From contig CAIXZH010000085.1 of assembly GCA_903923905.1 (NCBI GenBank), positions 1-60,651 on the forward strand: DNA of 60,651 nt. The letters are read 5' to 3'. This stretch comes from an uncultured Bacteroidia bacterium (lineage in GTDB: Bacteria > Bacteroidota > Bacteroidia > Bacteroidales > Prolixibacteraceae). The notes below the pieces were generated by a model. The model searched no databases, was not told the DNA's origin, and was given only the letters and a program-made list of their open reading frames with translations. The translations under genes were made by a program, and so were the position numbers. The first letter of the stretch is position 1, and each line of letters opens with the position of its first letter. Below are positions 20,025 through 41,568 of the stretch, piece after piece.

Positions 20025-20762
20025 ATGATCGGATCAATTGTTCATCGAATCCATGAGACAGATTCAACCAATAACTATGCCGCGAATCAGTTACTGACAA
20101 AACGTCTGCCGGAAGGAGTTGTTTTTATTGCTGACAGTCAGATTGTCGGAAGAGGACAAGCTTCCAGCAGTTGGGAAAGCGAGCCGAATAAGAATTTAAC
20201 CTTCAGTATCCTTCTTTATCCCGATTTTTTGGCAATTAGCAGGCAATTTGAGCTTTCCAAGGCGATATCACTTGGTGTGGCCGATTTTCTGAATGGCCAG
20301 ACTCAACGTGTCTCTATCAAATGGCCAAACGATATTTACCTTGAAAACAGGAAGGTGGCAGGAATATTAATAGAAAATTCGATTAGAATCAATAAAATAT
20401 CTTCATCAATTATCGGCATTGGCCTGAATATCAATCAGCAAATGTTCCTAAGCGATGCCCCTAACCCGGTTTCTTTGAGTCAGATGACAGGCAAGACCTA
20501 TAATCTGAACGAATCACTTTCGGACTTGTGCCTGAAAATAAATATTCGGTATAGTCAGCTATTCAATGGTGAATTCAATCGGATTGATCAGGATTATACC
20601 CAAATGTTATTCAGAAGAGGAACCTGGTCCCTTTATTCTGACGAAAATGGTGATTTTGAAGGAAAAATCTTAGGAGTCGATTCTATCGGTCGGTTACGGA
20701 TTGAAACCAAATCCGGAAAAATCAATAACTATCAGTTTAAAGAGGTTTCATTTAGGCTGTAG
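20025..20762 (+). CDS. birA: Biotin-[acetyl-CoA-carboxylase] ligase (BirA catalytic type)
   Basis: Attaches biotin to carboxyl-carrier proteins through biotinyl-AMP. The 245-residue protein has the start DSTNNYA, the GRGQASSSWESEPNKN biotin/ATP-binding segment (GRGRxGRxW family motif with changes), SIKWPNDIY and KVAGILIE. It lacks the N-terminal DNA-binding domain of E. coli BirA, so it is a ligase without repressor function. Its last codons (GGCTGTAG) already belong to a low-complexity array filling the space to the next gene. Confidence 0.94.
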   Translation: MIGSIVHRIHETDSTNNYAANQLLTKRLPEGVVFIADSQIVGRGQASSSWESEPNKNLTFSILLYPDFLAISRQFELSKAISLGVADFLNGQTQRVSIKWPNDIYLENRKVAGILIENSIRINKISSSIIGIGLNINQQMFLSDAPNPVSLSQMTGKTYNLNESLSDLCLKINIRYSQLFNGEFNRIDQDYTQMLFRRGTWSLYSDENGDFEGKILGVDSIGRLRIETKSGKINNYQFKEVSFRL

Positions 20763-21092
20763 ACTTTTAGGCTGTAGACTTTTAGGCTATTTGTTTGCAG
20801 TAGTTTAGATATGTAGGCTTTAAATTGCCAGGCTTCAAAAAATATCAGAGAGAGTGTAACGAGCGATCTTTGTAAAAGGGCAATCGTCTTATACATAAAG
20901 GCGCAGTATACCGAAAAATTTGAATATTAATTCAGTTATTATCAGAAATCATATTCAGTTAAAAATTAGAGTCAAGAATACAGCAACTCAAATTGCTCAT
21001 TACGTACTTGATTTATTTGCGAATAAAGATACACTAAAATCAAACCTAAGATCAAACTCCCAGACCTATAGCCTAACGGCCTACAGCCTATC
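20751..21092. repeat. Inverted-arm low-complexity element filling the birA/SRPBCC gap
   Basis: The left arm (20751-20792) repeats TTTTAGGCTGTAGAC-like words; the right arm (21061-21092) repeats the complement (CTATAGCC, CCTACAGCCTAT). The stop codons of the two convergent genes are inside the arms: TAG of birA in GGCTGTAG, and TAG of the SRPBCC gene in the complement of AGCCTATCC. The 270 bases between the arms show no gene that I trust. It may act as a shared 3' hairpin. Confidence 0.65.
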
Positions 21093-21549
21093 CTTCGAAC
21101 TGCATCTTACTAAGTGCATCGACAATATGATCAACTCCATCCTTCAGATGTTTTCCGACAAGCATTTTAATCATTGGATTCAAATCTGCATGCAGGGTAA
21201 CTCTGACTTTACAATTGCTTACGTCAACCGGTAAAAGCTGGATCCAGCAATTCACCTGAAAAGGAAGAGATTGGTTCCCGGTTAGCTTAATGAGTTTGGA
21301 TGGTTCACGCTCAACAATCTGAACCCCAATATTACCAATTGGGTTGATTGAAAAGCTGCATTCATCAGCTGTTGCCCTAAAGTTATCAAGTTTTATATCC
21401 GGTGTATTCGGATATTGATTTTTTATCTCTTCCAACCGGTTTGGTTCAAAAAGCGGCTCCAGATTCTTCAGGTTCGAGAGATGGTTATACACAGACTCCT
21501 GAGGTGAAGCAATAAATTTTACTTCACTGATATACTTTTCAATTCCCAT
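21088..21549 (-). CDS. SRPBCC-fold protein
   Basis: A 153-residue cytoplasmic protein with the START/Bet v1-like pattern: VKFIASPQESVYNHLSNLKNLEPLF at the start, beta-strand pairs in the middle (IGVQIVEREPSKLIKL), NCWIQLLPV, and the long C-terminal helix LVGKHLKDGVDHIVDALSKM. Such folds bind hydrophobic ligands; the ligand is unknown. It lies 32 bp downstream of pyrE on the same strand and is probably co-transcribed. No catalytic motif is visible. Confidence 0.85.
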   Translation of the reverse strand: MGIEKYISEVKFIASPQESVYNHLSNLKNLEPLFEPNRLEEIKNQYPNTPDIKLDNFRATADECSFSINPIGNIGVQIVEREPSKLIKLTGNQSLPFQVNCWIQLLPVDVSNCKVRVTLHADLNPMIKMLVGKHLKDGVDHIVDALSKMQFEG

Positions 21550-21580
21550 ATTCCGGTTATTAAACGAAGATCAATCTTAC

Positions 21581-22213
21581 CTATTTTCCCCAGGTTTCAG
21601 GACTTTTTCTCCAGTTATTCAGGCTCTCAAGTTGTGAATCGGTAATATCACCTGAGTCATAGGCCAGTTTAAGAAGAATATTGTAATTACTCAGGGTTGT
21701 AAGTTCGATATTAGCATCCTCGAAATTTTGAGTTGCCAGTGGAAAATTATAGGTGAAAATTGCCAGCATACCAAGAACTTCGGCACCAAAATTGCGAATT
21801 GCCTCTGCTGCACTAATCGAGCTTCCTCCTGTTGAAATAAGGTCTTCAATAATTACCACTTTGGTACCCGGCTGAATATCACCTTCAATAAGATTTTCAA
21901 GTCCATGTCCTTTGGGTTTTGACCTGACGTAAATAAATGGAAGTTGCAATGCTTCAGCGACTAAGACTCCATGTGCGATGGCTCCTGTAGCTACGCCGGC
22001 AATTGCTTCCGCATTGGGATATTTTTCCTGAATCAGTTTCACAAACTGACTGCAGATAAAAGTTCTGGTTTCAGGAAATGAGAGGACCTTTCGGTTATCG
22101 CAATAAATAGGAGATTTCCATCCGGATGCCCAGGTAAAGGGAATATTGGGCTGTATTTTAATGGTATCAATCGCTAACAGACGTTTAGCTACCTCAATTT
22201 GAGCGTTTTCCAT
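21581..22213 (-). CDS. pyrE: Orotate phosphoribosyltransferase
   Basis: Pyrimidine biosynthesis enzyme joining orotate to PRPP. The 210-residue protein has the substrate segment SGWKSPIYCDNRK, the YVRSKPKGHG loop, and the PRPP-binding motif VVIIEDLISTGGSS. Length and motifs fit the family. A promoter element TATTTTTG lies ~27 bases upstream; no attenuator structure is obvious. Confidence 0.96.
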   Translation of the reverse strand: MENAQIEVAKRLLAIDTIKIQPNIPFTWASGWKSPIYCDNRKVLSFPETRTFICSQFVKLIQEKYPNAEAIAGVATGAIAHGVLVAEALQLPFIYVRSKPKGHGLENLIEGDIQPGTKVVIIEDLISTGGSSISAAEAIRNFGAEVLGMLAIFTYNFPLATQNFEDANIELTTLSNYNILLKLAYDSGDITDSQLESLNNWRKSPETWGK

Positions 22214-22239
22214 AATTTCTGTGACTTTTCAATTTTATG

Positions 22240-22247
22240 CAAAAATA
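22240..22247 (-). promoter_or_regulatory. Promoter -7 element of pyrE
   Basis: Minus-strand TATTTTTG at 22247-22240, a full TAnnTTTG match 27 bases before the pyrE ATG. Confidence 0.4.
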
Positions 22248-22399
22248 AGAAGATTTTTGGCTTCAGGCTAATTAATTCTACGGCAATATCTTAATAAAAC
22301 ATTAAATTGAGATTATATCAAAACTGTAATCTTACAGAATTGAAATTTGTAATAGGCAGATATATAATAACATAATATGAGGGATGACTGAATTGCCTT

Positions 22400-23845
22400 T
22401 CATCTGAGATCTCCGGGTTTGAATTGACGTGGTTTATGTTTGAAATTGTAATCCCGTAATAATTTTAAAAATGCAGGTTCAAATCCGTGCGATGGGGAAG
22501 GAGCCTGCGAGAGGAGAAGGGTTCCTTCGGGGCCAATAAGGTAAAAGACGGGTGTAAATGAAGCATTATAGTTGACAATCAATTGATTTTGCCGGGATCC
22601 ATTGAGTAATTCCCAGGAGTACATTTTTGTTTTCCAGAGGTTGGAAGCATGAGAGAAATCATCGTCAACTGCAACGGATACGACGGTCAGAATTTGCCGC
22701 AATCTTTTTTCAAGTGATACAATCGAGTCTGTTTCAACCCTGCAGTCTGAACTAGCGCTGTTAAAAAAGGAGAGATAGACAAACTTTCCCTTAAATTGAT
22801 CAATTGAAACCATTTCCTTCTTCAAGTTGTAAAGACGTAAAATAGGCGCTTTTTCTCCTACTGCCAGGAGTTTAAGTTTATTCTTTACCTGCTCTGCAAT
22901 TGGTTGAATTAGACGTGATAACGTTTCGGATTGCATCATTTCTATTGCTTCCAAAACTCCTTCCTTTGAAAAACTGGAGGTATAATAACTTTCATACAAG
23001 CCTTTTAGTACTACCAATCCGGCAAATTCCTTTTTAAACCCTTTTGTTTCAAAAAAGGCAACGAGACTATTATAATCTCCCGAATTAATGAAGGTGGTAA
23101 TCTTCCTGTTCTGAGTATCCTGTGATTGCTTCCTCAGAAAATCGGTAAAGAGTAGTTCGAAAGCTCTTTGGTAAGCCGGATGACCCGGGTGGATGGATTG
23201 AGTGGCGAAATATTTCTGAATTACGGGATCTTCATTTTTCTGATATACAGCAAATTCCAATTCGGCAAAAGTATATTTCTTTAAAGTTGTAAAATAGGGG
23301 TTCTGAATGGAAGCGTACTTTTTTTCGAGTCGGTCAATAATTTCATTGGCTACCTCTTTAGATTGCTGCCGATAAATCGGTGTTGTATTTTTAATGGTTT
23401 CAAGGTTATAATCGGTCAGAAATGAGCGAACTGCAAAATTCAGATCAATATTGTCCAGACCAGGCAATCCAAACCAATAGGGTGTTGGTTTGAAGTAGAT
23501 ACTATGGGCCTCTGCGGAAGTTCTTGGAGAAAAAGGGGGAAGTGCCACCTGATAATTTTTCCCCGGTTCGACGACCATCGTTCCGCAGAATTTCTCAAGG
23601 TCGGAGTAGATTTCTGTTGTTTCATTGACAGGGAGAAGGAGCGAAAAGGCTCCGTCACTGGCAACTTTTGTGGTGGCTAACTCTTGTTTCTGATGAAGAA
23701 TCGGATCGGTTATGGTATAAAATGAGATCTCTTTGGTCGCGTAATCGGCCGCTTTGCCATATATTAATATCATCTGGGCGTTAAGCTGAACTGTGATAAG
23801 AGCGAGAATCATCACAGATAAAATCTTTTTCATCATTAATTGCAT
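22400..23845 (-). CDS. Secreted thioredoxin-fold protein with degenerate active site
   Basis: A 481-residue protein with a signal peptide (MKKILSVMILALITVQLNAQ; MKK at 23833 is the alternative start). The N-terminal half resembles the DUF4369-like and helical regions found before TlpA domains in Bacteroidota. The C-terminal ~150 residues have the TlpA/AhpC layout: VGEKAPILRLYNL, F-K-G-K-F-V-Y-L-S-F-F, and a cis-proline-like FTPVFYLIGPEG. Where a CxxC should follow, the sequence is SASSDC, so only the second Cys remains and disulfide exchange by the normal mechanism is unlikely. It starts 6 bp after coaD. Confidence 0.8.
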   Translation of the reverse strand: MQLMMKKILSVMILALITVQLNAQMILIYGKAADYATKEISFYTITDPILHQKQELATTKVASDGAFSLLLPVNETTEIYSDLEKFCGTMVVEPGKNYQVALPPFSPRTSAEAHSIYFKPTPYWFGLPGLDNIDLNFAVRSFLTDYNLETIKNTTPIYRQQSKEVANEIIDRLEKKYASIQNPYFTTLKKYTFAELEFAVYQKNEDPVIQKYFATQSIHPGHPAYQRAFELLFTDFLRKQSQDTQNRKITTFINSGDYNSLVAFFETKGFKKEFAGLVVLKGLYESYYTSSFSKEGVLEAIEMMQSETLSRLIQPIAEQVKNKLKLLAVGEKAPILRLYNLKKEMVSIDQFKGKFVYLSFFNSASSDCRVETDSIVSLEKRLRQILTVVSVAVDDDFSHASNLWKTKMYSWELLNGSRQNQLIVNYNASFTPVFYLIGPEGTLLLSQAPSPSHGFEPAFLKLLRDYNFKHKPRQFKPGDLR

Positions 23846-23851
23846 TGGATT

Positions 23852-24328
23852 TTATTCGTCATAGAATTCCGAAATATCCAAACAGGTTGGGAGAAACTGC
23901 GACGCGTCACCCTTATGGCGCAGAATATCTCTGACAATTGTCGAAGATATTGAGGTTGTCTCTGGGGTTGTCAGTAAAAAGACTGTTTCTACTTCAGGAT
24001 ACATCCTTTTATTAATCTGGGCAATAGCTCGTTCATATTCAAAATCGGAAGAAGTTCGCAACCCTCTCAAAATATACTGGGCATGGACTCTTTTACAGTA
24101 ATCGACGGTCAATCCATCATACTTGCCTACCTTTATCTTCGGCTCGTTTTCGAATACCCGCTTTATCCATTCTTTCCTTTTTGCCAGAGGGTAATATGGT
24201 TTCTTATCTGAGTTGTAACCGATCATGACGATGATTTCATCAAACATAGGCAATGCACGTCTGATAATTGACTCATGTCCCAGAGTAAATGGGTCAAAGG
24301 AACCCGGAAATATCGCAATTCTGTCCAT
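23852..24328 (-). CDS. coaD: Pantetheine-phosphate adenylyltransferase
   Basis: Fourth step of coenzyme A synthesis. The 158-residue protein shows the nucleotidyltransferase start FPGSFDPFTLGHESII (T/HxGH motif), RGLRTSSDFEYE, and the second motif ISSTIVRDI. Length and motifs are canonical. First gene of a two-gene leftward unit with the secreted thioredoxin-fold gene. Confidence 0.97.
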   Translation of the reverse strand: MDRIAIFPGSFDPFTLGHESIIRRALPMFDEIIVMIGYNSDKKPYYPLAKRKEWIKRVFENEPKIKVGKYDGLTVDYCKRVHAQYILRGLRTSSDFEYERAIAQINKRMYPEVETVFLLTTPETTSISSTIVRDILRHKGDASQFLPTCLDISEFYDE

Positions 24329-24346
24329 ATCAAATGAATTATCTTA

Positions 24347-24354
24347 CAAATCTA
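24347..24354 (-). promoter_or_regulatory. Promoter -7 element of coaD
   Basis: Minus-strand TAGATTTG at 24354-24347, a full TAnnTTTG match, 19 bases before the ATG. Confidence 0.45.
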
Positions 24355-24363
24355 ATAAGAAAA

Positions 24364-24590
24364 TTGGGAGAATTAGACAATTAGGTAATTAGGCTATTAG
24401 ACTATGAGGTTATTAAAAATGATTAACTCTAATTACTGGTGTTATATTTGGCAGCTTGCATTTGGCTGTTGGCGTTGAGCCTGAAGGCATGTAACTAATT
24501 GGCTCTTATTCTTAATCCTGGTCTGTGTAATACGACTGTCTTCAGGATAAAACCCGCCAGCAGCCAGTTGTTAATTGCCAGCTGCTTCAT
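24364..24590. repeat. Low-complexity arrays in the coaD-hydF gap, with inverted arms
   Basis: This 374-bp divergent gap has no gene. First comes an AATTAGG/CTATTAG word array (24371-24408). Then a left arm (GGCAGCT...GGCTGTTGGCG, 24450-24474) and a right arm (CGCCAGCAGCCAG...GCCAGCTGC, 24555-24585) that are rough reverse complements around an 80-base centre. The last ~110 bases before hydF should hold its promoter, but no consensus is clear. Confidence 0.5.
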
Positions 24591-24702
24591 TAGCAATGAT
24601 ATATACTGAATGTACCGTCCGTCATAAAACTGAAAATTCCAACATATATCAGTTTAAAAAACGTATTTTTTTGTTTTCTTTACACTACCAGTAGAAATCA
24701 AG

Positions 24703-25988: not shown

Positions 25989-26110
25989 ATAAGTTCAAAC
26001 TGGAAAGTGAAAAATGCAAAAATTAAATTGTCTCTACTCTATGAGAAATGTCTCAGTGAAACTTAATTTGAACTTTGAATTTGAACCTTTCATTTTGAAA
26101 TTTTAATTAT
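25989..26110. repeat. Inverted-arm low-complexity element before the isochorismatase gene
   Basis: The left arm (25989-26030) is rich in GTTCAAA and GAAA words; the right arm (26060-26110) is rich in TTTGAA, TTTCA and AATTTTAA words, roughly the complement, around a 30-base centre. It fills most of the 173-bp gap between hydF and the next ATG. Confidence 0.45.
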
Positions 26111-28245: not shown

Positions 28246-28599
28246 ATGAAAACTGTAAAAATTATTCTATTTGCCTTATTGACAATCGTTTTAAGTACAA
28301 CTTCCAATGGCCAGATGCATGACCATTCCAAAATAGCAGCTACAAAAACCGAAAAACTCAAAGTTTCTGGGAATTGTGAATCGTGTAAAGCCCGCATTGA
28401 GAAAGCCGCCAAACTCGATGGCGTCTCAAAAGCCGAATGGGATATCCCGAGTAAGATGCTTGCGGTTACCTATGATCCTTCGAAAACCAATCTCGATCTG
28501 ATCAGCAAGAAAATAGCTGCGGCCGGACACGACACCGAAAAGTTAAAAGCCGACGAAAAGGCGTATGCCGGTTTGCCTGGCTGCTGCAAGTACCGGTAA
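28246..28599 (+). CDS. Periplasmic heavy-metal-associated (HMA) protein
   Basis: A 117-residue protein with a signal peptide (to SNGQ) and one HMA domain, with metal-binding Cys in SGNCESCKARIEKA. After the HMA fold comes a conserved tail, GHDTEKLKADEKAY...LPGCCKYR, with a second Cys pair. The same HMA-plus-tail unit forms the C-terminus of the CusB-type adaptor at 34805-36319, so the two are paralogous modules. It probably hands metal to the RND pump in the periplasm (inference). Confidence 0.88.
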   Translation: MKTVKIILFALLTIVLSTTSNGQMHDHSKIAATKTEKLKVSGNCESCKARIEKAAKLDGVSKAEWDIPSKMLAVTYDPSKTNLDLISKKIAAAGHDTEKLKADEKAYAGLPGCCKYR

Positions 28600-28606: not shown

Positions 28607-28887
28607 ATGTGCTAAAGTGCAAATGTGGCAATTTGATAATGCTACAATTTTTAGGTAATAATTAAGATTGAATAATTGAATGTTCCATAATTTAAGTGCA
28701 GAATTGATGTGTTCTCTGATATTCAGTTATTTATGTCAATTTCCTGACATGGATATCAGAACTGCAATCCTTTACCTCTAAATTGTCTCATTATCTCATT
28801 ATCTCATTGCCTCATTATCTCATTGCCTCATTAGCACATTGTCTCATTAGCACATTGTCTCATTACCTTTCATCTTACTTCAATTTC
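28607..28887. repeat. Inverted-arm low-complexity element upstream of cusA
   Basis: The left arm (28607-28650) carries ATGTGCTAAAG-like words; the right arm (28783-28872) is an array of CTCATTATCTCATTGCCTC words plus two TTAGCACATT, the complement of the left-arm word. The right arm can be translated in frame with cusA (giving a repetitive SHYLI peptide), but it is intergenic: the conserved pump sequence starts at the ATG at 28888. The 288-bp gap has no other feature that I can see. Confidence 0.6.
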
Positions 28888-31800
28888 ATGTTTAACAGAC
28901 TTGTCAGATATTTTCTTGAAAACAGGCTGATTACCTTTATTTTCCTGATCACCTTTGTGGTGTTGGGAATGGTTTACATGCCGTTTAACTGGAAGCCGGA
29001 CCTCTTTCCACGTGATCCTATTGCGGTAGACGCTATCCCTGATATCGGTGAAAATCAGCAGATTGTGGCCACTGAATGGATGGGGCGTTCACCCAAAGAC
29101 ATTCAGGACCAGGTGACCTATCCATTAACTACGGCACTTCTGGGAATTCCGGGTGTTCAAACGGTGCGAAGTACATCCATGTTTGGGATGTCGTTCATCT
29201 ATATTATTTTTAAGGATAACATTGAATTTTACTGGAGTCGCTCCCGAATCCTCGAAAAGCTGAATTCGCTTCCATCGGGCACCTTACCTGTTGGTGTTCA
29301 GCCAACCCTGGGCCCTGATGCCACGGCGTTGGGTCAGATTTACTGGTACACGCTCGAGGGTCGTGACCCGAAAACCGGTCAGCCAAGCGGAGGGTGGAAT
29401 CCGCAGGAATTGCGAAGTATTCAGGATTTCTATGTAAAATATGGCCTGGCAACGGCTGAAGGGGTTTCTGAAGTGGCATCAGTAGGTGGATTTATTAAGG
29501 AATACCAGATAGACCTTAATCCTGAAGCGCTCAAAGCTTTTAAAGTTTCCGTTATGGATGTCATGAATGCGGTCCGGAAAAGCAACCTGGATGTCGGGGC
29601 GGAGACCATGGAGCTGAATAATGTGGAATATATCATCCGTGGATTGGGCTATGTGAAAAACCTCAGTGATCTTGAGGTTTCCGTTGTGGCAGTCCGGAAT
29701 AATGTACCGGTGAGGATAAAAGATGTTGCCCATGTGAACTTTGGACCCGCTACCCGTCGTGGCGGACTTGACAGGGGTGGTGCTGAAGCAGTCGGGGCCG
29801 TAGTGGTGGCCCGGTATGGATCGAATCCCATGGAGGTAATCAATAATGTAAAAGACAAAATCAAAGAGATTGAAGGTGCCCTTCCACAGAAAACCTTGCC
29901 TGATGGCTCGGTTTCCAAAGTCACGATTGTCCCTTTCTATGACCGGACAGGACTCATTAAAGAGACCATTGGCACGCTGGAATCAGCCCTTTCGCATGAG
30001 ATACTTATCAGCATCATTGTCATCATTATCCTGGTAATGAATCTGCGGGCATCGCTGATTGTCGCCGGATTATTGCCGATCGGGGTATTAATGACCTTCA
30101 TTCTGATGCGACTTTTTGGAGTCGAAGCCAATATTGTGGCGCTTTCGGGTATTGCAATTGCCATCGGGGTGATGGTTGATATCGGGATTGTGGATGTGGA
30201 GAATATTCTGCGCCATTTGGAAATGCCCGAAAATAAAGGAATCCGCGGAAAACAACTAATCGCCATGATTTATAAGGCAACAACCGAAGTGCGGGATGCT
30301 GTTGTAACTTCTATCGCTACAACAATAGTCAGTTTCCTACCAGTGTTCGCCATGGAGGCAGCTGAAGGAAAGCTGTTCCATCCATTGGCTTTTACCAAGA
30401 CTTTTGCCTTGCTGGCAGCATTTATCCTCGGGATCGTGGTCTTGCCAACCCTCACTTACCTTTTCTTTTCAGTCAGGATTGATACCAAAAGAATACGTAA
30501 GATCTGGAATGGTTTATTGATGATCCTTGGTTTATTATTTGTTGTTTTCTGGCATACCTGGCCGGCGATGGCTCTGGTAGCAATAGGAATCAATAACCTG
30601 TTGGATTTCCGCTGGCCTGAGCAACGAAAGGAATTTCCGAACCAGATCAATATCGGAATTACTGTTCTTGTGGCCTCGTGGTACCTCACAAAGGAGTGGC
30701 TTCCGCTGGGTGCTCACAACAATATAGTCATTAACTTTCTGTTTGTAGCCGGAATAATTGCTGTTATCCTGACAGCATTGATGGCTATGGTTAGCTATTA
30801 TGAACTAATTATTCGCTGGGCACTGGCAAACAAACGTAAGTTCCTGATTATACCTGCAGTTACCTTGCTCTTTGGAATTCTGGTCTGGCTCGGATTTGAT
30901 CGGACTTTTGGTTTAATGGCTTCCGGGGCTGAAAAACTGGGTTGGAAGAGTATTCGTCAGAGTGCTTTCTGGCAGACACCCGGAAGAACGTTTCCCGGAA
31001 CAGGGAAAGAGTTCATGCCATCGCTGAATGAAGGCTCATTCCTTTTGATGCCAACCAGCATGCCTCATTCGAGCATTGAAAAAAATCTGCAATATATCGA
31101 AACACTCGATAAAAGGCTCTCTGCGATTCCGGAAGTTGATGTGGCTGTCGGCAAGTGGGGACGCGTAAACTCTGCGCTCGACCCAGCTCCGGTTCAGATG
31201 TTTGAAAATACCATTAACTACCGTCCGGAATATATTCTTGATGAGAATGGGCAACGTGAAAAGTTTAAAGTGGACAGGGATGGAAATTTTGTAATGAATA
31301 TCCGGGAAATCCGAAATACGATAGAAACAAATGGAAATGGAGAAGTTGAAATAAATAGAAATAAAGTTTATATTGAAAGTCTTAAAGAAGTTAGGTATAT
31401 TAAAGATAAAGAGGCGTTTTTGGTTAATATTGATAATCAGTCATATGTAATCAATAAGCCATATATCAATATTCCTGCCAATATCTCCCAATTTCAATTC
31501 ATTTCCCCCAATTTCAATGTCTTTCAATCTATCTCCGCCAATTTCCATCCGTTTCTTATTAAAGATGATAACGGAGATTATTTCCGTCAGTGGAGGCCCG
31601 GGATAAAATCACCCGATGATATCTGGAAGGAGATCGTGAAGGTGACCAATATCCCAGGGCTCACTTCGGCGCCAAAACTTCAGCCTATCGAAACCCGTCT
31701 TGTGATGCTTTCAACAGGAATGCGGGCTCCCATAGGGTTGAAAGTTTACGGTCCGGACCTTGAAACCATCGAGAAGGCAGGTTTACAGCTTGAGCAGGCC

Positions 31801-32904
31801 TTAAAGGAAGTTCCCTCGGTGAATGCCGCCTCTGTTTTTTATGACCGGGCAGTTGGAGCTCCATATCTTGAAATTAAACTAAATCGCGAGTCGATGGCGC
31901 GCTACGGCATGACGGTCAGCGATATTCAGGAAGTTCTTCAGGTGGCCGTAGGTGGCATGGCACTCACCTCGTCGGTCGAAGGGCGTGAACGGTTCCCGAT
32001 CAGGGTTCGCTATGCCCGCGAATTACGCGACAATCCAGACGATATTAAACGGATCCTTATTCCGGCTGCAACTGGAGTACAGGTTCCGCTGGGTGAGATT
32101 GCCGATATCGATTATACACGCGGAGCACAGATGATCCGAAGTGAAAACACGTTTCTTAACGGCTATATCATTTTCGATAAAAACGAAGGGAAAGCTGAAG
32201 TTGATGTGGTGGAAGAAGCCGCTAAAGTTCTAAAACAGAAGATATCCTCGGGTCAGCTCACCCTCGCACCGGGAGTTTCCTACAGATTTGCAGGCAATTA
32301 CGAACACCAGTTAAGAGCCACAAAAAGATTGGCAATTGTGATCCCCATAAGTTTACTCCTTATTTTGTTTCTCCTTTATTTTCAATTCCGCACGGTAACA
32401 GCTTCATTGATACATTTTTCAGGGGTATTTGTAGCCTTCGCGGGCGGATTTATCATGCTTTGGCTTTACGGACAAGGGTGGTTTATGAATTTCGCGGTTG
32501 CCGGTGTCAATCTTCGGGACCTGTTCCAGATGCACCCCATAAACCTGAGTGTGGCAGTTTGGGTAGGGTTTATTGCGCTGTTTGGAATTGCCACCAACGA
32601 TGGGGTGATCATGGGAACCTATATTCACCAGGTTTTTGAAGCCCGGAAACCCGGTACCGTCGATGAAGTCCGTGAGGCTGTTGTTGCTGCCGGATTAAAA
32701 CGCGTCAGACCTGCCATGATGACAACAGCGGTGGCCGTGATCGCCCTTTTGCCGGTTTTATCCTCCTCCGGAAAGGGATCAGATATTATGATTCCCATGG
32801 CAATCCCTATGTTTGGAGGTATGGTAATCCAGGTGATGACAGTATTTGTCGTTCCGCTATTTCAGGCAATGTGGAGGGAAAGTGAAGTAAGAAGAAATAA
32901 CTGA
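28888..32904 (+). CDS. cusA: CusA/CzcA-type RND heavy-metal efflux pump
   Basis: Inner-membrane proton-driven pump of 1,338 residues (MFNRLVRYFLENRL start). Two halves with RND layout are visible: MVDIGIVDVENILRHLEM carries the heavy-metal RND proton-relay acidic residues in the first half, and GIATNDGVIMGTY in the second. It is longer than usual. About 85 residues (~805-890, nt 31300-31560) between DRDGNFV and DNGDYFRQWRP are rich in Ile/Asn/Phe and are encoded by GAAAT words on the left and ATTTC words on the right. They look like an in-frame insertion of the intergenic repeat family. An extra hydrophobic region lies at ~520-620. Operon partners: TolC-type, CusB-type. Confidence 0.93.
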   Translation: MFNRLVRYFLENRLITFIFLITFVVLGMVYMPFNWKPDLFPRDPIAVDAIPDIGENQQIVATEWMGRSPKDIQDQVTYPLTTALLGIPGVQTVRSTSMFGMSFIYIIFKDNIEFYWSRSRILEKLNSLPSGTLPVGVQPTLGPDATALGQIYWYTLEGRDPKTGQPSGGWNPQELRSIQDFYVKYGLATAEGVSEVASVGGFIKEYQIDLNPEALKAFKVSVMDVMNAVRKSNLDVGAETMELNNVEYIIRGLGYVKNLSDLEVSVVAVRNNVPVRIKDVAHVNFGPATRRGGLDRGGAEAVGAVVVARYGSNPMEVINNVKDKIKEIEGALPQKTLPDGSVSKVTIVPFYDRTGLIKETIGTLESALSHEILISIIVIIILVMNLRASLIVAGLLPIGVLMTFILMRLFGVEANIVALSGIAIAIGVMVDIGIVDVENILRHLEMPENKGIRGKQLIAMIYKATTEVRDAVVTSIATTIVSFLPVFAMEAAEGKLFHPLAFTKTFALLAAFILGIVVLPTLTYLFFSVRIDTKRIRKIWNGLLMILGLLFVVFWHTWPAMALVAIGINNLLDFRWPEQRKEFPNQINIGITVLVASWYLTKEWLPLGAHNNIVINFLFVAGIIAVILTALMAMVSYYELIIRWALANKRKFLIIPAVTLLFGILVWLGFDRTFGLMASGAEKLGWKSIRQSAFWQTPGRTFPGTGKEFMPSLNEGSFLLMPTSMPHSSIEKNLQYIETLDKRLSAIPEVDVAVGKWGRVNSALDPAPVQMFENTINYRPEYILDENGQREKFKVDRDGNFVMNIREIRNTIETNGNGEVEINRNKVYIESLKEVRYIKDKEAFLVNIDNQSYVINKPYINIPANISQFQFISPNFNVFQSISANFHPFLIKDDNGDYFRQWRPGIKSPDDIWKEIVKVTNIPGLTSAPKLQPIETRLVMLSTGMRAPIGLKVYGPDLETIEKAGLQLEQALKEVPSVNAASVFYDRAVGAPYLEIKLNRESMARYGMTVSDIQEVLQVAVGGMALTSSVEGRERFPIRVRYARELRDNPDDIKRILIPAATGVQVPLGEIADIDYTRGAQMIRSENTFLNGYIIFDKNEGKAEVDVVEEAAKVLKQKISSGQLTLAPGVSYRFAGNYEHQLRATKRLAIVIPISLLLILFLLYFQFRTVTASLIHFSGVFVAFAGGFIMLWLYGQGWFMNFAVAGVNLRDLFQMHPINLSVAVWVGFIALFGIATNDGVIMGTYIHQVFEARKPGTVDEVREAVVAAGLKRVRPAMMTTAVAVIALLPVLSSSGKGSDIMIPMAIPMFGGMVIQVMTVFVVPLFQAMWRESEVRRNN
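31300..31562. repeat. GAAAT/ATTTC inverted-arm element inside cusA
   Basis: The left arm (31305-31365) has about seven GAAAT or GAAAC words; the right arm (31480-31560) has AATTTC, CATTTC, CTTTC and TTTCTT words, about a 115-base centre between them. The frame stays open throughout, adding ~85 residues. The same words form the intergenic arrays at 32905 and 34580 in this operon. Confidence 0.6.
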
Positions 32905-32977
32905 ATTGAAATAAAGGAAATAAATTGAAATACTTTGAAATGAAATAGGGAAATAAATAGAAATTCTTTGGAAGCAG
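32900..32977. repeat. GAAAT word array after cusA
   Basis: About six GAAAT words at 7-13-base spacing begin at the cusA stop codon. Only the left arm is seen; the four-helix-bundle relic follows about 70 bp later. The 261-bp gap to the TolC gene has nothing else. Confidence 0.6.
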
Positions 32978-33049: not shown

Positions 33050-33148
33050 ATGGAAAATCACCAATACATCGAATTAAAGGATCTGGAAGTTTATCAATTA
33101 TCCAGAAAGTTATCCGCAACTGAACAATTTTATTACCGTTACCACTAA
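33050..33148 (+). pseudogene. Relic of a four-helix-bundle (23S IVS / S23-type) ORF
   Basis: ATG at 33050 opens a 32-codon frame whose first 22 residues (IELKDLEVYQLSRKLS) resemble the N-terminus of four-helix-bundle proteins encoded by 23S rRNA intervening sequences; those are ~120 residues long. It then diverges and stops at 33148. A short remnant beside a GAAAT array is the best reading; a chance frame is possible. Confidence 0.45.
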
Positions 33149-33165
33149 AAAAGGGAGGGAAAATC

Positions 33166-34581
33166 ATGATAAATCATAAAAACAAAATATTTCTACTAAT
33201 TTCAATTAGTTTCCTTTTATCTGTTTCTGCCTATTCCCAGGATTCTTTATTCTATTACCTGAATATAGCTTGCAAAAATAATCCGGCGGTATTGCAGAAA
33301 TTCAATGAATACAAGGCTTCACTGCAGAAAATTCCCCAGGTTGGCAGTCTGCCCGATCCTGAGCTAAGCACAGGTGTTTTTCTTAGCCCAATGGAACTGG
33401 TTGCCGGTAAGCAGGTTGCTGACATTCGGTTAATGCAGATGTTCCCCTGGTTTGGGGTATTGAAAAATGCCAGGGATGAGATGAGTCTGATGGCGAAGGC
33501 AAAATATGAATCTTTCAGGGAATCGAGGCTTCAACTGTTTTACAGCGTTCAGCGGACGTGGAATGAACTTCAAAAGGTCCGGCAAACCATCCGGATTAAT
33601 GAAGAGAACCTCAAAATACTGCAATCGCTTGAACGGCTTTCTGTGTCCCGATTTAAAGCGGCCCCGCCAATCGGCGGTTCATCTTCCGGCAGTCAGGTTT
33701 TTAAGGGAAATTCTGCCTCTCCTGTAACAGGGTCATCCGGAATGAACAGTATGGGTGGCAATCCGGAGGCCGTTACCAAAACCTCTGCACCTCCAATGCC
33801 TTCCAGCCCGATGGGCTCATCCGGAGGTTCCGGCCTGGCTGAAGTATACCGGATTCAGATGGAAATAGGGGAACTTGAAAACAACCTGAGCCTTTTAAAA
33901 AGTCAGCAACAGACTATTTCAGTAAGGTTTAACAGTTACCTGAACCGCTCTCCGAGGCTGGAAGTGAATGTTCCTGAAGTGTTGAGTGCAGATTCTCTGA
34001 CAAATTCACTCTCAGCTGTTTCAGACAGTATGTTTCGCCAGAGTCCAATGCTTGAGATGTTGAGATACGAAGAACAATCGCTGGAGTCGCGCAAAAAAAT
34101 GGTTTCACGAATGGGGTACCCGATGGTTGGTGTCGGATTGAATTATTCGGTCATTCAGAAAAATCAGATGCCAACCTCCGGCATGAATGGCAGCGATATG
34201 ATTATGCCCATGATGACCATAACCCTTCCCATTTACCGGAAGAAATACAAGGCAATGCGGGAGGAAGTGAGCCTGTTGCAGGAATCGACAAAAAAAGGTA
34301 TTCAGCAGACGGCCAATTCTTTACAAAACGAATACTATGAGGCGATTCAATTTTACCAGGATGCCCGGCGGCGCCTGAAGCTTTATCAGAATCAATCGGC
34401 ACTGGCTGGCAAAACGCTGAATATCCTGATGAAAAGTTATTCGGCTTCAGGATCTGACCTGTCCGAATTGCTTCGGATCAGACAGCAAACCCTCGACTAC
34501 GAGCTTAAACAAATTGAAGCAATAACCGATAATAACATGGCAATTGCCTGGTTGAAAAAATTAAGTTGTGGGGAGAGATGA
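33166..34581 (+). CDS. TolC/CusC-family outer-membrane efflux protein
   Basis: Outer-membrane channel of the metal efflux tripartite system. The 471-residue protein has a signal peptide (to AYSQ), the CusC-like start N-N-P-A-V-L-Q-K-F, LPDPELSTGVFLSPMEL, two long helical hairpin regions and the repeat-half pattern of TolC. A low-complexity Ser/Gly/Met stretch (~170-225: GGSSSGSQ, SSGMNSMGG, PMPSSPMGSSGG) sits in the first half, where metal-binding Met would be plausible. A Met-rich NGSDMIMPMMTITLP segment follows. The stop codon TGA begins the TGAAAT word of the next array. Confidence 0.9.
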   Translation: MINHKNKIFLLISISFLLSVSAYSQDSLFYYLNIACKNNPAVLQKFNEYKASLQKIPQVGSLPDPELSTGVFLSPMELVAGKQVADIRLMQMFPWFGVLKNARDEMSLMAKAKYESFRESRLQLFYSVQRTWNELQKVRQTIRINEENLKILQSLERLSVSRFKAAPPIGGSSSGSQVFKGNSASPVTGSSGMNSMGGNPEAVTKTSAPPMPSSPMGSSGGSGLAEVYRIQMEIGELENNLSLLKSQQQTISVRFNSYLNRSPRLEVNVPEVLSADSLTNSLSAVSDSMFRQSPMLEMLRYEEQSLESRKKMVSRMGYPMVGVGLNYSVIQKNQMPTSGMNGSDMIMPMMTITLPIYRKKYKAMREEVSLLQESTKKGIQQTANSLQNEYYEAIQFYQDARRRLKLYQNQSALAGKTLNILMKSYSASGSDLSELLRIRQQTLDYELKQIEAITDNNMAIAWLKKLSCGER

Positions 34582-34797
34582 AATATATAGAAATACATTG
34601 AAATAATGGGAAATGTGAAGAAATACGTTGAAATACATTGAAATACATTGAAATGAAGGGAAATAAGAAGAAATAATTTGAAATTAAGGGAAATGAGAAG
34701 AAATAAATTTTCCCCAATTTTCCCTTATACCTATTTATTTCCCGCTATTTCTACCTATTTCTATTTATATTATTTCCATTTAATTATCTTAAAATTA
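34578..34797. repeat. GAAAT/ATTTC inverted-arm element between the TolC and CusB genes
   Basis: The left arm (34578-34706) has over a dozen GAAAT words; the right arm (34712-34790) has ATTTC and CTATTTC words; the arms nearly touch at CCCCAATTTTCCC. It occupies almost the whole 223-bp gap and could fold into a long imperfect hairpin in mRNA. Confidence 0.7.
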
Positions 34798-36966: not shown

Positions 36967-36983
36967 CATCCAAATAAAAAGTT

Positions 36984-39209
36984 ATGTCCACTACTGTCAG
37001 GAAAAATTACCCGGTTTCGGGATTGAGCTGTGCCTCTTGTGCCGCAAATGTTGAAAAAACGCTGAACAATCAACCGGGGGTGAAAAGCGCTTCGGTCAAT
37101 TTTGCCTCCTCTACAGTTTGGGTCGAATATAATACCGAGGCTACCAGCCCGAATAGTCTTCGGAATGCCGTCCGGTCATCCGGTTATGATATTATTACCG
37201 ATCAACAGGAGGCAACCCAGCAAGCAGAGGTGATTCTACGGGAATCAGAGATCCTGAAAAGAAAAACCTGGAGTGCAGCTACCCTCACACTTCCAATTGT
37301 GGTTCTGGGGATGTTTTTTATGGATCTCCCATATGCTAACTGGGTCATGCTGATACTCGCAACACCTGTCGTATTCTGGTTTGGCAGAGCCTTTTATGTC
37401 AATGCGTTCAAACAACTGAAGCACAGATCAACCAATATGGATACCCTGGTTGCTCTAAGCACCGGCATAGGTTATCTTTTTAGCCTGATTAATACTGTTT
37501 TCCCCCATTTTTTAATTACCGCTTCGGGTCATGCTCCGGTATATTTCGAAGCTTCAGCAGTTATTATTGTGTTTATTCTGCTTGGGAAGTTGCTTGAAGA
37601 GAAGGCTAAATCGAATACTTCTTCCGCTATCAAAAAACTGATGGGTTTACAACCCGATTCAGTCACTTTCGTCAGCGAGGATGGCAGCGAATCGATTATG
37701 ACAGTTTCACTGGTGCAGATCGGTCATTTGTTAAGGGTTAAACCGGGTGAACGCATTCCGGTTGACGGTGAGATTACGGAAGGCGGATCATTCGTTGACG
37801 AAAGTTCCATTACGGGAGAACCTGTACCGGTTGAAAAGCTTCCGGGCAGCAAAGTCTATGCCGGGACTATCAATCAAAGGGGGAGTTTTGTTTTCAAGGC
37901 TCAGAAAGTTGGGAGCGAGACTCTTCTGGCACGAATTATCCGGATGGTCCAGGAAGCCCAGGGGAGCAAGCCACCCGTTCAAAAACTGGTCGACAAGGTG
38001 GCTTCGGTTTTTGTACCAGTAGTGATCGGCTTATCGATAATCACTTTTATAACCTGGATGGTTTTCGGAGGAGTTCAGCCTTTGCCACAAGCCCTCCTTG
38101 CTATGGTTTCAGTATTGATTATTGCCTGTCCATGCGCGCTTGGCCTTGCAACACCTACAGCGATAATGGTGGGAATCGGTAAAGGGGCGGAACATGGAAT
38201 TTTAATTAAAGATGCTGATGGATTGGAGTTGGCCCATAAGATAGATGTGCTCGTTTTAGATAAAACGGGCACAATCACCCAGGGAAAGCCTGCTGTAACC
38301 GATTGGATCTGGCATACAGACGACTTGTCGTTGTTAAGGCAGGTTGTCCTGAGTCTTGAATCTCAATCGGAACACCCATTGGCAGAGGCAATTGCGGTTG
38401 ATTTGAGAAACGAAAAAGCAGATACGGTTCCGGTTGCCGATTTTAAAAGCATTACAGGAAGAGGTGTAGCCGGATCTTGCCAGGGTATTAAATATTTCAT
38501 TGGCAATGAGCTGCTGATGAGTGAATCGGGAATAAGTATCCCGGAGGAAGACAAAAAAATCGCGGTAGGACTGGAAAAGCAGTCAAAAACAGTCCTTTTT
38601 GTTGGGAAAAACGACCAGGTTCTGTCGGTTATTGCTATTGCAGACCCCATCAAGCCGTCGTCCATCAAGGCAATTCAACGGTTAAAAAGGAGTGGTATTG
38701 AAATTCACATGTTAACCGGAGACAATGAGCATACTGCAGGTTCAATTGCAGGGCAAACCGGAATCATCCATTATAAAGCCGGTTTACTGCCGGAGGATAA
38801 GGCCAACTACATCAGAGATCTTCAGCAACAAGGGAAGGTGATAGCGATGGTGGGTGACGGTATCAATGATTCATTGGCCATGGCGCAGGCCGATGTGAGC
38901 ATTGCGATGGGAAATGGATCGGATATTGCCATGGATGTTGCCAGGATGACCATTGTATCCTCCAATCTTGATACAATCTCTGCTGCTATTGAGCTCTCAA
39001 AACAAACGATCAGGACGATTAAACAGAACCTGTTCTGGGCATTTATCTACAATCTGATCGGGATTCCGATCGCGGCAGGGGTTCTCTATCCGTTCACCGG
39101 TTTTATGCTCAATCCTATGATTGCAGGAGGTGCTATGGCGCTAAGCTCAGTTTCCGTGGTGAGCAACTCACTTCGGCTCAAATTAAAAAAAATGAGTGTT
39201 AATCATTAA
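36984..39209 (+). CDS. copA: Copper-translocating P1B-type ATPase
   Basis: Cytoplasm-to-periplasm copper exporter, 741 residues. One N-terminal HMA domain (GLSC16ASC19AANVEKT), the P1B helices, the actuator motif TGEPVPVEK, transmembrane metal site C382-P-C384, phosphorylated D426 in DKTGTIT, the SEHPLAEA motif of the nucleotide-binding domain, and GDGINDSLAMAQADVSIAMG. The CPC and the C-terminal membrane motifs fit Cu(I)/Ag(I). The gene has its own promoter after the AraC-type regulator and is followed by an HMA chaperone. Confidence 0.96.
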   Translation: MSTTVRKNYPVSGLSCASCAANVEKTLNNQPGVKSASVNFASSTVWVEYNTEATSPNSLRNAVRSSGYDIITDQQEATQQAEVILRESEILKRKTWSAATLTLPIVVLGMFFMDLPYANWVMLILATPVVFWFGRAFYVNAFKQLKHRSTNMDTLVALSTGIGYLFSLINTVFPHFLITASGHAPVYFEASAVIIVFILLGKLLEEKAKSNTSSAIKKLMGLQPDSVTFVSEDGSESIMTVSLVQIGHLLRVKPGERIPVDGEITEGGSFVDESSITGEPVPVEKLPGSKVYAGTINQRGSFVFKAQKVGSETLLARIIRMVQEAQGSKPPVQKLVDKVASVFVPVVIGLSIITFITWMVFGGVQPLPQALLAMVSVLIIACPCALGLATPTAIMVGIGKGAEHGILIKDADGLELAHKIDVLVLDKTGTITQGKPAVTDWIWHTDDLSLLRQVVLSLESQSEHPLAEAIAVDLRNEKADTVPVADFKSITGRGVAGSCQGIKYFIGNELLMSESGISIPEEDKKIAVGLEKQSKTVLFVGKNDQVLSVIAIADPIKPSSIKAIQRLKRSGIEIHMLTGDNEHTAGSIAGQTGIIHYKAGLLPEDKANYIRDLQQQGKVIAMVGDGINDSLAMAQADVSIAMGNGSDIAMDVARMTIVSSNLDTISAAIELSKQTIRTIKQNLFWAFIYNLIGIPIAAGVLYPFTGFMLNPMIAGGAMALSSVSVVSNSLRLKLKKMSVNH

Positions 39210-39220
39210 AATAATTAAAC

Positions 39221-39433
39221 ATGAAAACGTTAAAATTTAAGACCAATGTAAATTGCGGGGGATGTATTGCCACCGTTACACCCTATTTGAATAAGCTTTC
39301 CGGCATAGACAAGTGGAGCGTGGACACCACAAACCCGAATAAGATACTGACGGTGGAAACCTCTGATCTTGATCCTGTTGCGATTATTTGTGCATTAAAG
39401 GAGGCCGGGTATAAAGCGGAAATTATTATTTAA
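39221..39433 (+). CDS. CopZ-like HMA metallochaperone
   Basis: A 70-residue cytoplasmic single HMA domain with N-C-G-G-C and a terminal AGYKAEII strand. The ligand motif CGGC differs from the CxxC of the other HMA domains here. It starts 11 bp after copA and is co-transcribed, so it likely delivers copper to CopA. The transcript is closed by a hairpin at 39480. Confidence 0.88.
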   Translation: MKTLKFKTNVNCGGCIATVTPYLNKLSGIDKWSVDTTNPNKILTVETSDLDPVAIICALKEAGYKAEIII

Positions 39434-39479
39434 CTATCGGTTCTCTTCATGAATTAGTGATGGCTTCACTTAAAGAGAT

Positions 39480-39521
39480 AGTGATAGTTTCACTCAAAGT
39501 AAAGCTATCACTTATTTTTTT
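39480..39521 (+). terminator. Terminator of the copA-chaperone operon
   Basis: AGTGATAG at 39480-39487 pairs with CTATCACT at 39505-39512, followed by a T-run to 39521. Confidence 0.7.
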
Positions 39522-39524
39522 AAA

Positions 39525-39562
39525 AGAATACCCTGAAAGTTTCTGAACCTTCAGGGTATTCT
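39525..39562. terminator. Hairpin between the copA operon and the POT transporter gene
   Basis: AGAATACCCTGAA at 39525-39537 is the exact reverse complement of 39550-39562; on the minus strand it runs into TTTTA, so it can terminate the leftward transporter transcript ending at 39588. Confidence 0.75.
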
Positions 39563-39587
39563 GCAAGTATTGTATTATCCTGCAAAT

Positions 39588-41255
39588 TTAGGCATTCCCG
39601 GTTGCTGTTTCAAGGCGTTTTAATATGCTGAAAATAAAGGTGGCAGATAACAGGCACATCACAACCAGTATTGAGAAGAACTGCCAAAGTTCAATTTTGT
39701 CCCAAAGCACGCCGATCAAGCCAGCTGCCAGGTTCCCGAACGCAGTTGCTCCAAGCCAGGCTCCCTGAGCCAATCCCTTGTATTTTGGTGGTGCCACTTT
39801 GGATACAAACGAAATTCCGATAGGGCTGAGAAAAAGTTCGGCCACAGTTAGTACCAGGTAGCAGTTTATGAGCCAAAAGGGTGAAACGAGATTCTCAGAT
39901 CCGCCGCCATTGAGGTGTCCTGGTGAGGTAAGTCCCATGGAGGCCGCAATCAGCAGACCAAAACCAATCGCGGTAAAGAGCATTCCAAAACCAATCTTCT
40001 TTGGTGCTGAAGGTTCTTTCCCATTACTCCGTAACCAACTGAAAAATCCTATAATTACAGGGGTTAGGAAAACAATAAAAATCGGGTTGAATTGCTGAAA
40101 TTTCTGCGGTGTGATGGTGTAATCACCGGTAAAAGAACTGATCATATACCAGGCAAGCGCTACACTGGCCATAAAAACCCCTCCACCGATTAATTTCAGA
40201 TTGCGTCCTTTTCCAATGAAAACCAATATTGAGCCGATTATGGCAAAAAGCACGGGTAACAGTTGACTTAAGTCGAAAAGTACATAGGTGCTTGGTTTTA
40301 CATGTCCAAGTTGGGTGTAGTCACGGGCAAAGATGGTCATGGTAAAGCCATTCTGATGGAAGGCCATCCAGAAGAAAATAACCACAAAGAAAACCAGTCC
40401 AAGAGCAATCAGCCGTTCGCGGGTTTGCTGAGGAGTAAGGACGATCATCTTGCTTTTCAGATCGTCTGATTTCGATTTCTGCTTTTCAGTAACGTCAGCC
40501 AGTTTGTAATATTTTTTAAATCCGATAAAAATCAGGAATGAAACAATCATACTTACAGCGGCAACTGCGAAACCGGCATTGTACGAGCTGGCGAGTGTTT
40601 CGATATAAGTTTTTGAAAATGTAGTCAAATCGGTAAAATGAGTCCCCATTTGTGCATGTGCCAGCTGGGTTAATTTGGTTATGTCCTCCAGTTTGCCATT
40701 CAGAAACTGATGCGCCATATGCGGAATAGAAGAATCGTAAGTGAGCCCTTTGCCTTTCAGAACCCAGTTTCCAACGGCTCCGGCAGCCGATGGTGCAAAG
40801 AACGCCCCGATATTAATACCCATATAGAATATATTGAAGGCATTGTCACGGTTTGAGCTGTATTTTGGGTCATCATACATGTTCCCGACTAGTGCCTGCA
40901 AATTTCCTTTGAAAAAACCCGTTCCAAGTGAGATGATCGCAAGGGCTGAATAAACTACTGCAATTCCCAGACCGGGCATTGCCAGAAGGGTATATCCCAA
41001 AAACATAATAACCAGACCCAGGGTTATTGTTCTTCCGTACCCCAGCACATTGTCTGCCACATATCCACCCAGAATGGGTAAGAAATAGATTCCAAACAGG
41101 AAACTGCCATATATTCCACCAGCTTCAGCAGTGGAAAAACCAAATTTAGCCTGAAGATAAAGCACAAAAATGGCCAGCATAGTGTAATATCCGAACCGCT
41201 CACCCATGTTGGCAAAAAAAGCTACCAATAGCCCTTTGGGATGTCCTTTAAGCAT
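39588..41255 (-). CDS. POT-family proton-dependent oligopeptide transporter
   Basis: Inner-membrane di-/tripeptide-proton symporter of 555 residues. The family motif is complete at the N-terminus (ERFGYYTMLAIFVLYL, then GGYVADNVLGYGRTITLG) with FYMGINIGAFFAP and a later transmembrane set; ~12-14 hydrophobic spans. An extra charged loop with KQKSKSDDLKSK lies mid-protein. Stand-alone leftward gene. POT members in Bacteroidota take up peptides; the specificity is not visible. Confidence 0.93.
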   Translation of the reverse strand: MLKGHPKGLLVAFFANMGERFGYYTMLAIFVLYLQAKFGFSTAEAGGIYGSFLFGIYFLPILGGYVADNVLGYGRTITLGLVIMFLGYTLLAMPGLGIAVVYSALAIISLGTGFFKGNLQALVGNMYDDPKYSSNRDNAFNIFYMGINIGAFFAPSAAGAVGNWVLKGKGLTYDSSIPHMAHQFLNGKLEDITKLTQLAHAQMGTHFTDLTTFSKTYIETLASSYNAGFAVAAVSMIVSFLIFIGFKKYYKLADVTEKQKSKSDDLKSKMIVLTPQQTRERLIALGLVFFVVIFFWMAFHQNGFTMTIFARDYTQLGHVKPSTYVLFDLSQLLPVLFAIIGSILVFIGKGRNLKLIGGGVFMASVALAWYMISSFTGDYTITPQKFQQFNPIFIVFLTPVIIGFFSWLRSNGKEPSAPKKIGFGMLFTAIGFGLLIAASMGLTSPGHLNGGGSENLVSPFWLINCYLVLTVAELFLSPIGISFVSKVAPPKYKGLAQGAWLGATAFGNLAAGLIGVLWDKIELWQFFSILVVMCLLSATFIFSILKRLETATGNA

Positions 41256-41295
41256 AAGATTATAGTTTTAAGGGGTTAAAATTCTCTAATTGCGG

Positions 41296-41303
41296 CAAAT
41301 ATA
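41296..41303 (-). promoter_or_regulatory. Promoter -7 element of the POT gene
   Basis: Minus-strand TATATTTG at 41303-41296, a full TAnnTTTG match 40 bases before the ATG. Confidence 0.45.
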
Positions 41304-41419
41304 GCGAACTTTTTTGGAGCCCTGATCATGTCAAAATTTATGCTTGAGGACTAAAAATGAAATTGGGATAAAAAAAGGTTGTTCATCCATTTGTCAGGGA
41401 TTTGGCTTCCGCCTTTTGT

Positions 41420-41568
41420 CCGCTGGCTGCCGGCCGGAACCTCCGGATAAATTTGCCAAATATCCTTAAAAGAATCTATAAAAGTATAGTTTTAAGCAGT
41501 GCATAATATCTGCCAGCCGCTAGTCGCCAGTTGCCAGCCACTAGTTGGCCGCAAGCCACCAGCTGCCC
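41420..41568. repeat. Inverted-arm low-complexity element in the POT-nnr gap
   Basis: The left arm (CCGCTGGCTGCCGGCCGG, 41420-41437) is roughly complementary to a GCCAG-rich array (41512-41568: GCCAGCCGC, CGCCAGTTGCCAGCC). The 437-bp gap holds these, the POT promoter and the promoter at 41641-41671; no gene. Confidence 0.5.

Follow-up and report, generated by a model that had tools for sequence, protein, structure and literature searches.

A stretch of 60,651 nucleotides (nt) from an uncultured Bacteroidia bacterium of the Prolixibacteraceae (contig CAIXZH010000085.1 of assembly GCA_903923905.1; hereafter the window, meaning this stretch at its full length) carries, mostly between its genes, degenerate arrays of short words that are often arranged as a left arm and a roughly complementary right arm, with a different word at each place. 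What kind of element keeps its architecture while its sequence changes from one locus to the next? In relatives of the host and in other phyla, arrays of this kind enclose genes of the S23 family (PF05635, 23S_rRNA_IVP, a four-helix-bundle protein); the length of the repeated unit follows the family of the enclosed gene, the upstream arm carries the G-rich strand, and gaps that are filled in one species are empty in another. We consider it probable, with some reserve, that the window arrays are arms of small intercistronic S23 elements whose word differs by locus, and that the words are recognition sites of the encoded protein. In the window the elements are mostly gene-less, S23 having been lost from all copies except for a deleted remnant at 33050–33176.

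S23 genes between inverted arms

Matches to PF05635 were found in 16 of the 18 genomes compared from the genus and in 85 of the 119 from the order. The window's own genome has seven, six of them above the cut-off; read by eye, its four full-length S23 genes have inverted arrays on both sides, as has one of the two fragments. We read 31 S23 loci from the genus and 29 from the order, mostly the best per genome, together with 80 named loci, of which 79 were testable; one genus locus was dropped for its short flank. To assess the arms, we locally aligned 260 nt of upstream sequence with the reverse-complemented 260 nt that follow the gene, with mismatched loci as the null and their 95% point as the threshold. 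This test was passed by 16 of 30 genus and 21 of 29 order loci (37 of 59 together), with 5 and 7 passing in the direct sense, and by 41 of the 79 named loci among the matches listed (12 in the direct sense). A single one of 58 control genes passed, and the comparison is conservative because window genes touching arrays were kept among these controls. The named passes, again among the matches listed, were spread over Bacteroidota (28/49), Acidobacteria (3/4), Poribacteria (2/2), Proteobacteria (2/3), Chloroflexi (2/5), Planctomycetes (2/4), Fibrobacter (1/3) and Verrucomicrobia (1/2), with none in the seven groups represented by one named locus each. Six S23 loci on cyanobacterial plasmids, read by eye, all had an upstream array; its inverted counterpart downstream was clear at four of them and short at the other two. 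The arms are also polar: G exceeds C in the upstream arm at 65, and falls below it at 7, of the 72 informative S23 loci.

The unit length of the arrays depends on the protein family that they enclose. Autocorrelation of the flanks, scored by its dominant lag in the range 5–12 nt, gave 7–8 nt at 97 of 138 S23 loci (17/30, 26/29, 28/49 and 26/30 by subset) and 9–10 nt at 4. GxxExxY (PF13366), a family unrelated to S23 that occurs in 17 of the 18 genomes of the genus and in 61 of 118 from the order, also has word arrays in its flanks and showed the reverse, with 9–10 nt at 33 of 57 loci (17/29 and 16/28) and 7–8 nt at 4, while control-gene flanks gave 7–8 nt in 3 and 9–10 nt in 2 of 58. The family-specific period was reproduced separately in the genus, order and named sets; the window's GAAAT clade, with its 10-nt unit, stands apart from S23 elements in general. 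Upstream arms of GxxExxY showed no G/C bias (G>C in 11, G<C in 19).

Across 9409 non-orthologous pairs drawn from the 138 S23 loci, word similarity (cosine) rose only for close S23 homologues at unrelated sites, averaging 0.143 in the highest bin (n=94) against 0.040–0.058 in the rest, and the mean at a score of at least 0.5 was reached by none of 200 permutations. In a further search we took the genomes of 16 named loci, half of them picked by eye for a TCAGC-type word and half for having other words. Array matches numbered 20–101 in seven of the eight TCAGC-group genomes (reversed control 0 in six and 6 in one) and were absent from the eighth; in the other group six genomes had no TCAGC-type matches, and the remaining two had matches whose controls were of comparable or greater size (49 versus 27 and 10 versus 96).

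Two placements of S23 elements were noted in addition. On a Nostoc plasmid (L343), the element lies antisense between two ribonucleotide reductase genes. On contig C47 of the window's genome (L087:3-2171 and 1474-1854), the element is situated inside a helicase-like gene, whose frame remains open for 722 codons across it while S23 uses another frame.

The arrays of the window and their counterparts in relatives

A preliminary description of the window, made from its letters alone, reported degenerate word arrays at eight places, and these are real: when direct self-match scores were compared with 100 dinucleotide shuffles per region, no shuffle reached the score in six regions, one did at 41420 and three at 25989, so that at most 3 of 100 match the repetition in any region. 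The arms paired less uniformly than had been described. Local alignment of each region to its own reverse complement, against 300 shuffles per region, gave clear inverted complementarity in four of the eight regions (20751, reached by 6 shuffles; 25989, by 13; 31305, by 1; 34578, by 4), a weak score at 28607 (31) and non-significant ones at 24450 (73; tested as 24345–24610) and 41420 (88). At 32900, where the test covered the left arm alone, 265 shuffles reached the score; this copy had been taken for single-armed, and a second arm exists at about 33186–33232, with 32913–32941 pairing with 33189–33217 at 79%. The proposal of one architecture with its own word at each locus stands. Tandem Repeats Finder assigned the window arrays periods of 15, 13, 8/16/24 and 10 nt, and an Rfam scan of the window returned a single tRNA.

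One of the arrays belongs to a complete element. A left arm of GAAAT words with a period of about 10 nt (32902–32970) overlaps the stop codon of the CusA-type gene, the S23 remnant follows at 33050–33176 on the forward strand, and an ATTTC right arm (33186–33232, forward strand) lies inside the signal-peptide-like start of the outer-membrane-factor gene (33166–34581). By tblastn the remnant consists of the two ends of the intact S23 protein of locus L119, residues 3–24 at 82% and 115–134 at 75% identity, separated by a large internal deletion. When all gathered S23 and GxxExxY proteins were searched against the window, only L117 and L119 matched, and only at 33050–33176; the centres of the other seven arrays held no S23 or GxxExxY remains. 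In the corresponding CusA-to-outer-membrane-factor gap, the S23 gene is uninterrupted in the relatives G003, G011, G014 and G015, with GAAAT arrays next to it; G010 and G002 have other internal deletions of that gene (by eye), and eight further genomes lack it. The downstream arm (window 33186–33232; L119 past 1872) apparently encodes the hydrophobic beginning of the outer-membrane-factor protein.

The array at 31305–31555 calls for a further correction to the preliminary description: it is inside the CusA-type open reading frame (ORF) 28783–32904, which it crosses without a stop, its GAAAT left arm (31305–31400) and ATTTC right arm (31485–31555) both in frame on the forward strand. This insert measures 275–329 nt in 8 of 13 same-genus genomes, where the other five and three order genomes have 77 nt; seven of the eight carry 5–9 GAAAT and 4–7 ATTTC words, and G005 carries 0 and 2. 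In G005 no PF05635 match was found and the words of the CusA insert are mostly lost, a single case and not a trend. The comparison of orthologous gaps that had been proposed thus shows arrays, and the CusA insert, present in some species and absent in others. A further GAAAT pair begins at the outer-membrane-factor stop codon, with about 12 words at 10-nt spacing in the left arm (34575–34705) and ATTTC words in the right (34715–34785), shortly before the CusB-type gene (ATG 34805); by eye, this gap has paired arrays in G000, G002, G003 and G014 and one arm in G010. Upstream of CusA, a left arm of the words GTGC(A)AAT / GATAATG (28607–28660) follows a stop at 28599, and as right arm a CATTGTCT / CATTAGCA array (28780–28868, with an 8/16-nt tandem array at 28782–28865) immediately precedes the gene; by eye, the word in the HMA-to-CusA gap differs by species.

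The remaining arrays use other words. The TAGGCTG (TAGACTTT) left arm at 20751–20840, with a 15-nt tandem array at 20751–20788, overlaps the stop codon of a biotin/lipoate-ligase-type gene (20025–20762) and pairs inverted with 21061–21090 at 80%, within a complementary right arm (21055–21095) that ends where the convergent gene 21088–21549 has its stop. An unpaired TTAG(G/A)C-type array read by eye at 24366–24410 (0/100 shuffles in the direct test over 24345–24610) adjoins the GCCAG pair, which comprises a GGC(A)GCT left arm (24450–24485), whose alignment with its partner is the non-significant one noted above, and a GCCAGCTG right arm (24550–24592); by eye this pair was seen in G000 alone among the relatives read. 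A GTTCAAA left arm (25989–26020) faces a TTTGAAC right arm (26060–26110; 13-nt array at 26065–26108) shortly before the next gene begins (ATG 26124), and a pair of this type was seen by eye also in G002 and G014 and not in G004, G006, G007 or G016. At the last array, a weak GCTGGCTGCC left arm (41418–41442) precedes a GCCAG(C/T)TGCC right arm (41508–41568). We compared these words with those of S23 loci: the best match of the TAGGCTG arm was L100, that of the 24550 arm was L090 of the same genome, and that of the 41508 arm was L147 and then L090, the best control gene for 41508 scoring 0.13. As window genes touching arrays sat among the controls, with self-matches of up to 0.85, the control is unusable for 24370, 24450L, 25989L and 28607.

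Gaps next to a GDP-fucose synthase gene vary in the same way. The gap before it is 1 nt in G012, 551 nt with S23 in G003 and 553 nt with GxxExxY in G008, with GxxExxY fragments in G001 and an S23 gene (at a contig end) in G009; the gap after it holds S23 in G003, GxxExxY in G009, G000, G012 and G001, and in G008, by eye, the start of GxxExxY at a contig end. Different elements therefore occupy one gap in different genomes, and the contrast of filled with empty gaps among the relatives demonstrates insertion. Searching the genus for three-word GAAAT arrays gave 175 matches in G012, 24 each in G000 and G002, 15 in G015, 10 in G014, 8 in G003, 6 in G008, 3 each in G010 and G011, 2 in G001, 1 in G009 and 0 in seven genomes, against a reversed control of 0 and once 1. 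All seven genomes with a GAAAT-type S23 gene, intact or broken, have such matches. The 14 array loci read in G012 are mostly one-armed and near stop codons (e.g., L316, L321 and L320); at L320, GCCAG and ATTTC arrays are mixed in one gap.

Explanations for the arrays

How might an S23 protein be tied to arrays whose word length is fixed and whose letters are not? In the reading we favour, the encoded protein would bind its own word array. The S23 relative of structure 2gsc, which matches the S23 profile, is reported to form a ring in which five four-helix bundles are joined (PMC4990558). Given this five-fold ring in the Xanthomonas relative, we propose one word per subunit: each word would be contacted by one subunit, or by a constant portion of the ring, and such a contact would set how long the word is while its letters could drift along with the protein. 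Ring-shaped RNA-binding proteins such as TRAP offer a comparison for a ring that reads words. Inverted arrays may bring together two rings, or two ends of an element, in the manner of the repeats that bound the intervening sequence (IVS) of 23S rRNA, and gene-less arrays may be derivatives that are bound in trans or decaying.

Several results weigh against this reading and should temper it. Only one of the eight window arrays holds S23 remains, 60 of the 138 S23 loci fail the arm test, and about 30% lack a dominant 7–8 nt period. GxxExxY flanks gave direct versus inverted matches at 17 versus 16 of 29 and 13 versus 14 of 28 loci. The possibility that the word is a smooth function of protein distance was not borne out, an overall correlation being absent (Spearman -0.044 over all pairs). 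G012 (7.6 Mb) has by far the most GAAAT matches, yet its three S23 matches are all of other types, which contradicts a strict dependence of arrays on a same-word S23 gene in the genome; our reading covered part of the genus's S23 matches, so that a GAAAT-type gene could sit elsewhere. Finally, no near-identical unit (a DNA copy of at least 120 nt) was found at an unrelated site in the 12 genomes compared, which speaks against recent transposition; a pair in G093 looks like one region assembled twice, and those in G090 and G103 are tandem copies. The suggestion that the arrays are remains of a mobile element comes close, in view of the S23 genes within arms and the species-dependent gaps; a recent copy that would speak for true mobility was not found in the 12 genomes.

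One may postulate instead that these are IVS-like RNA elements whose arms pair in the transcript, such that RNase III excises the hairpin from the mRNA, as it cuts the 23S IVS (PMC4990558), and S23 or the hairpin tunes operon expression. S23 is indeed co-directional with both neighbours at 86 of 109 loci, its own arms pair in RNA above the median mismatched pair at 112 of 138, and the window regions 34575–34790 (z -2.99; 1 of 200 shuffles equally good) and 31290–31570 (z -1.75; 12 of 200) fold better than most shuffles. Were the sense RNA under selection, however, one would expect an excess of mismatches compatible with a G-U pair in it; at 74 S23 loci there were 71 of these and 90 of the other kind (p 0.16), a result that also counts against the reading we favour; pairing in the sense RNA exceeded that in the antisense at 68 of 138 loci, i.e., no difference, six S23 loci are antisense to both neighbours, and many arrays are one-armed. 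Selection on the arms as sense RNA is thus unsupported by either comparison, and with it the earlier suggestion of long mRNA hairpins as a selected feature, even though the folding itself was borne out in those two regions. We regard this alternative as unlikely.

A DNA transposon-like element, similar to a miniature inverted-repeat transposable element (MITE) where the gene is missing, would treat the arrays as subterminal binding sites and be moved by some enzyme. The 1-nt gap in G012 at the place of the 551-nt and 553-nt gaps of G003 and G008, the variable presence of array gaps and of the CusA insert between species, and inverted arms of one fixed polarity would all suit it. The unit has neither a conserved end sequence nor a transposase, sequence divergence around occupied and vacant sites is too great for a target duplication to be read, and a recent copy is missing from the 12 genomes. 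We hold this possibility to be quite improbable. Neutral slippage and template switching at short intergenic palindromes could also make arrays, with S23 and GxxExxY merely carried in permissive gaps; copy number varies, one-armed arrays exist and perfect runs occur, but the family-linked word length, the array-poor controls (1/58) and the fixed polarity are left unexplained, and we give this scenario very little credence.

Relation to known repeats and to S23 genes elsewhere

The window elements are best read as IVS-like elements, the 23S rRNA IVS being among the closest known systems. In the IVS of Coxiella and Leptospira, an S23 ORF lies between terminal inverted repeats, and in Coxiella variable-number heptamer repeats precede this ORF (PMC4990558). 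The IVS is found in helix 45 of the 23S rRNA, with one near-perfect 28-bp stem and one word (PMC4990558), whereas the window elements lie between protein genes, once inside one and never within a 23S rRNA gene, have degenerate arms (significant in four of eight regions) with a new word at each locus, and are mostly gene-less, the S23 ORF being seen in relatives and in the deleted remnant, and not in the other seven arrays.

Repetitive extragenic palindromic sequences (REP), their bacterial interspersed mosaic elements (BIME) and MITEs are likewise short intergenic repeats with inverted symmetry, and each of their families has one conserved sequence. These element types are listed in PMC4692102. 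The window elements conserve architecture and word length only: no conserved palindrome of 20–40 nt in many copies, as in REP/BIME, and no terminal repeats common to the copies, as in MITEs and insertion sequences, were seen among them, the words and arms differing between loci. The accessory protein Avd of diversity-generating retroelements belongs to a related fold family; in a comparison confined to the Avd protein, three of five S23 proteins matched NCBIfam DivGenRetAVD weakly, at 21.5–31.8 bits against a cut-off of 80.

Intergenic heptamer repeats of bacteria have been reported for decades and, to our knowledge, are unexplained. The GGGAATC repeats of Xanthomonas and GGGGA(C/T)T repeats of Nostoc form intergenic 7-nt arrays, with 70 convergent inverted pairs in X. 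campestris; they differ in being described as quadruplex-forming, and the excerpts searched mention neither S23 nor a helix bundle (PMC4692102). TAACTGA repeats of Beggiatoaceae, Cyanobacteria and five Bacteroidetes are also intergenic heptamer arrays, missing in close relatives with the same neighbours; they have one word in mainly direct arrays upstream of start codons, and no link to S23 was found in the excerpts (PMC4679880). For comparison with the 7-nt word of such short tandemly repeated repetitive (STRR) types, the window arrays have periods of 8/16, 10, 13 and 15 nt, and S23-linked arrays at large 7–8 nt. We tentatively suggest a sequence-free element class in which the protein sets the word length, at 7–8 nt per subunit for S23 rings and 9–10 nt for GxxExxY, while the word drifts with the protein; many unexplained 7-nt repeats, in Xanthomonas, Nostoc, Beggiatoa and others, might then be gene-less arms.

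S23/IVP proteins occur in many phyla, and we know of no function for them or for GxxExxY. In a full-text search of openly licensed papers, seen as excerpts, none linked word arrays in general to genes of either family, and no relevant paper on GxxExxY with repeats was found. Tying both families to repeats, with the protein family setting the word length, reduces the matter to one question: does the protein read the word? S23 genes have been listed as possible partners inside cas loci, one of them between cmr3 and cmr2 (PMC3936711), and S23 appears in a list of CRISPR-linked proteins (PMC10910872). Such genes may be insertions of these elements, a reading that, if true, would explain S23 genes inside unrelated operons such as the cmr3/cmr2 CRISPR locus.

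Two other repeats were noted in the window. A 264-nt tandem repeat of 4.1 copies (711–1786) lies within an ORF of 2271 amino acids (23–6838), and two near-identical GAGACAAGGCATGCCTTGTCTC palindromes, unlike the word arrays, share one gap at 44399–44594.

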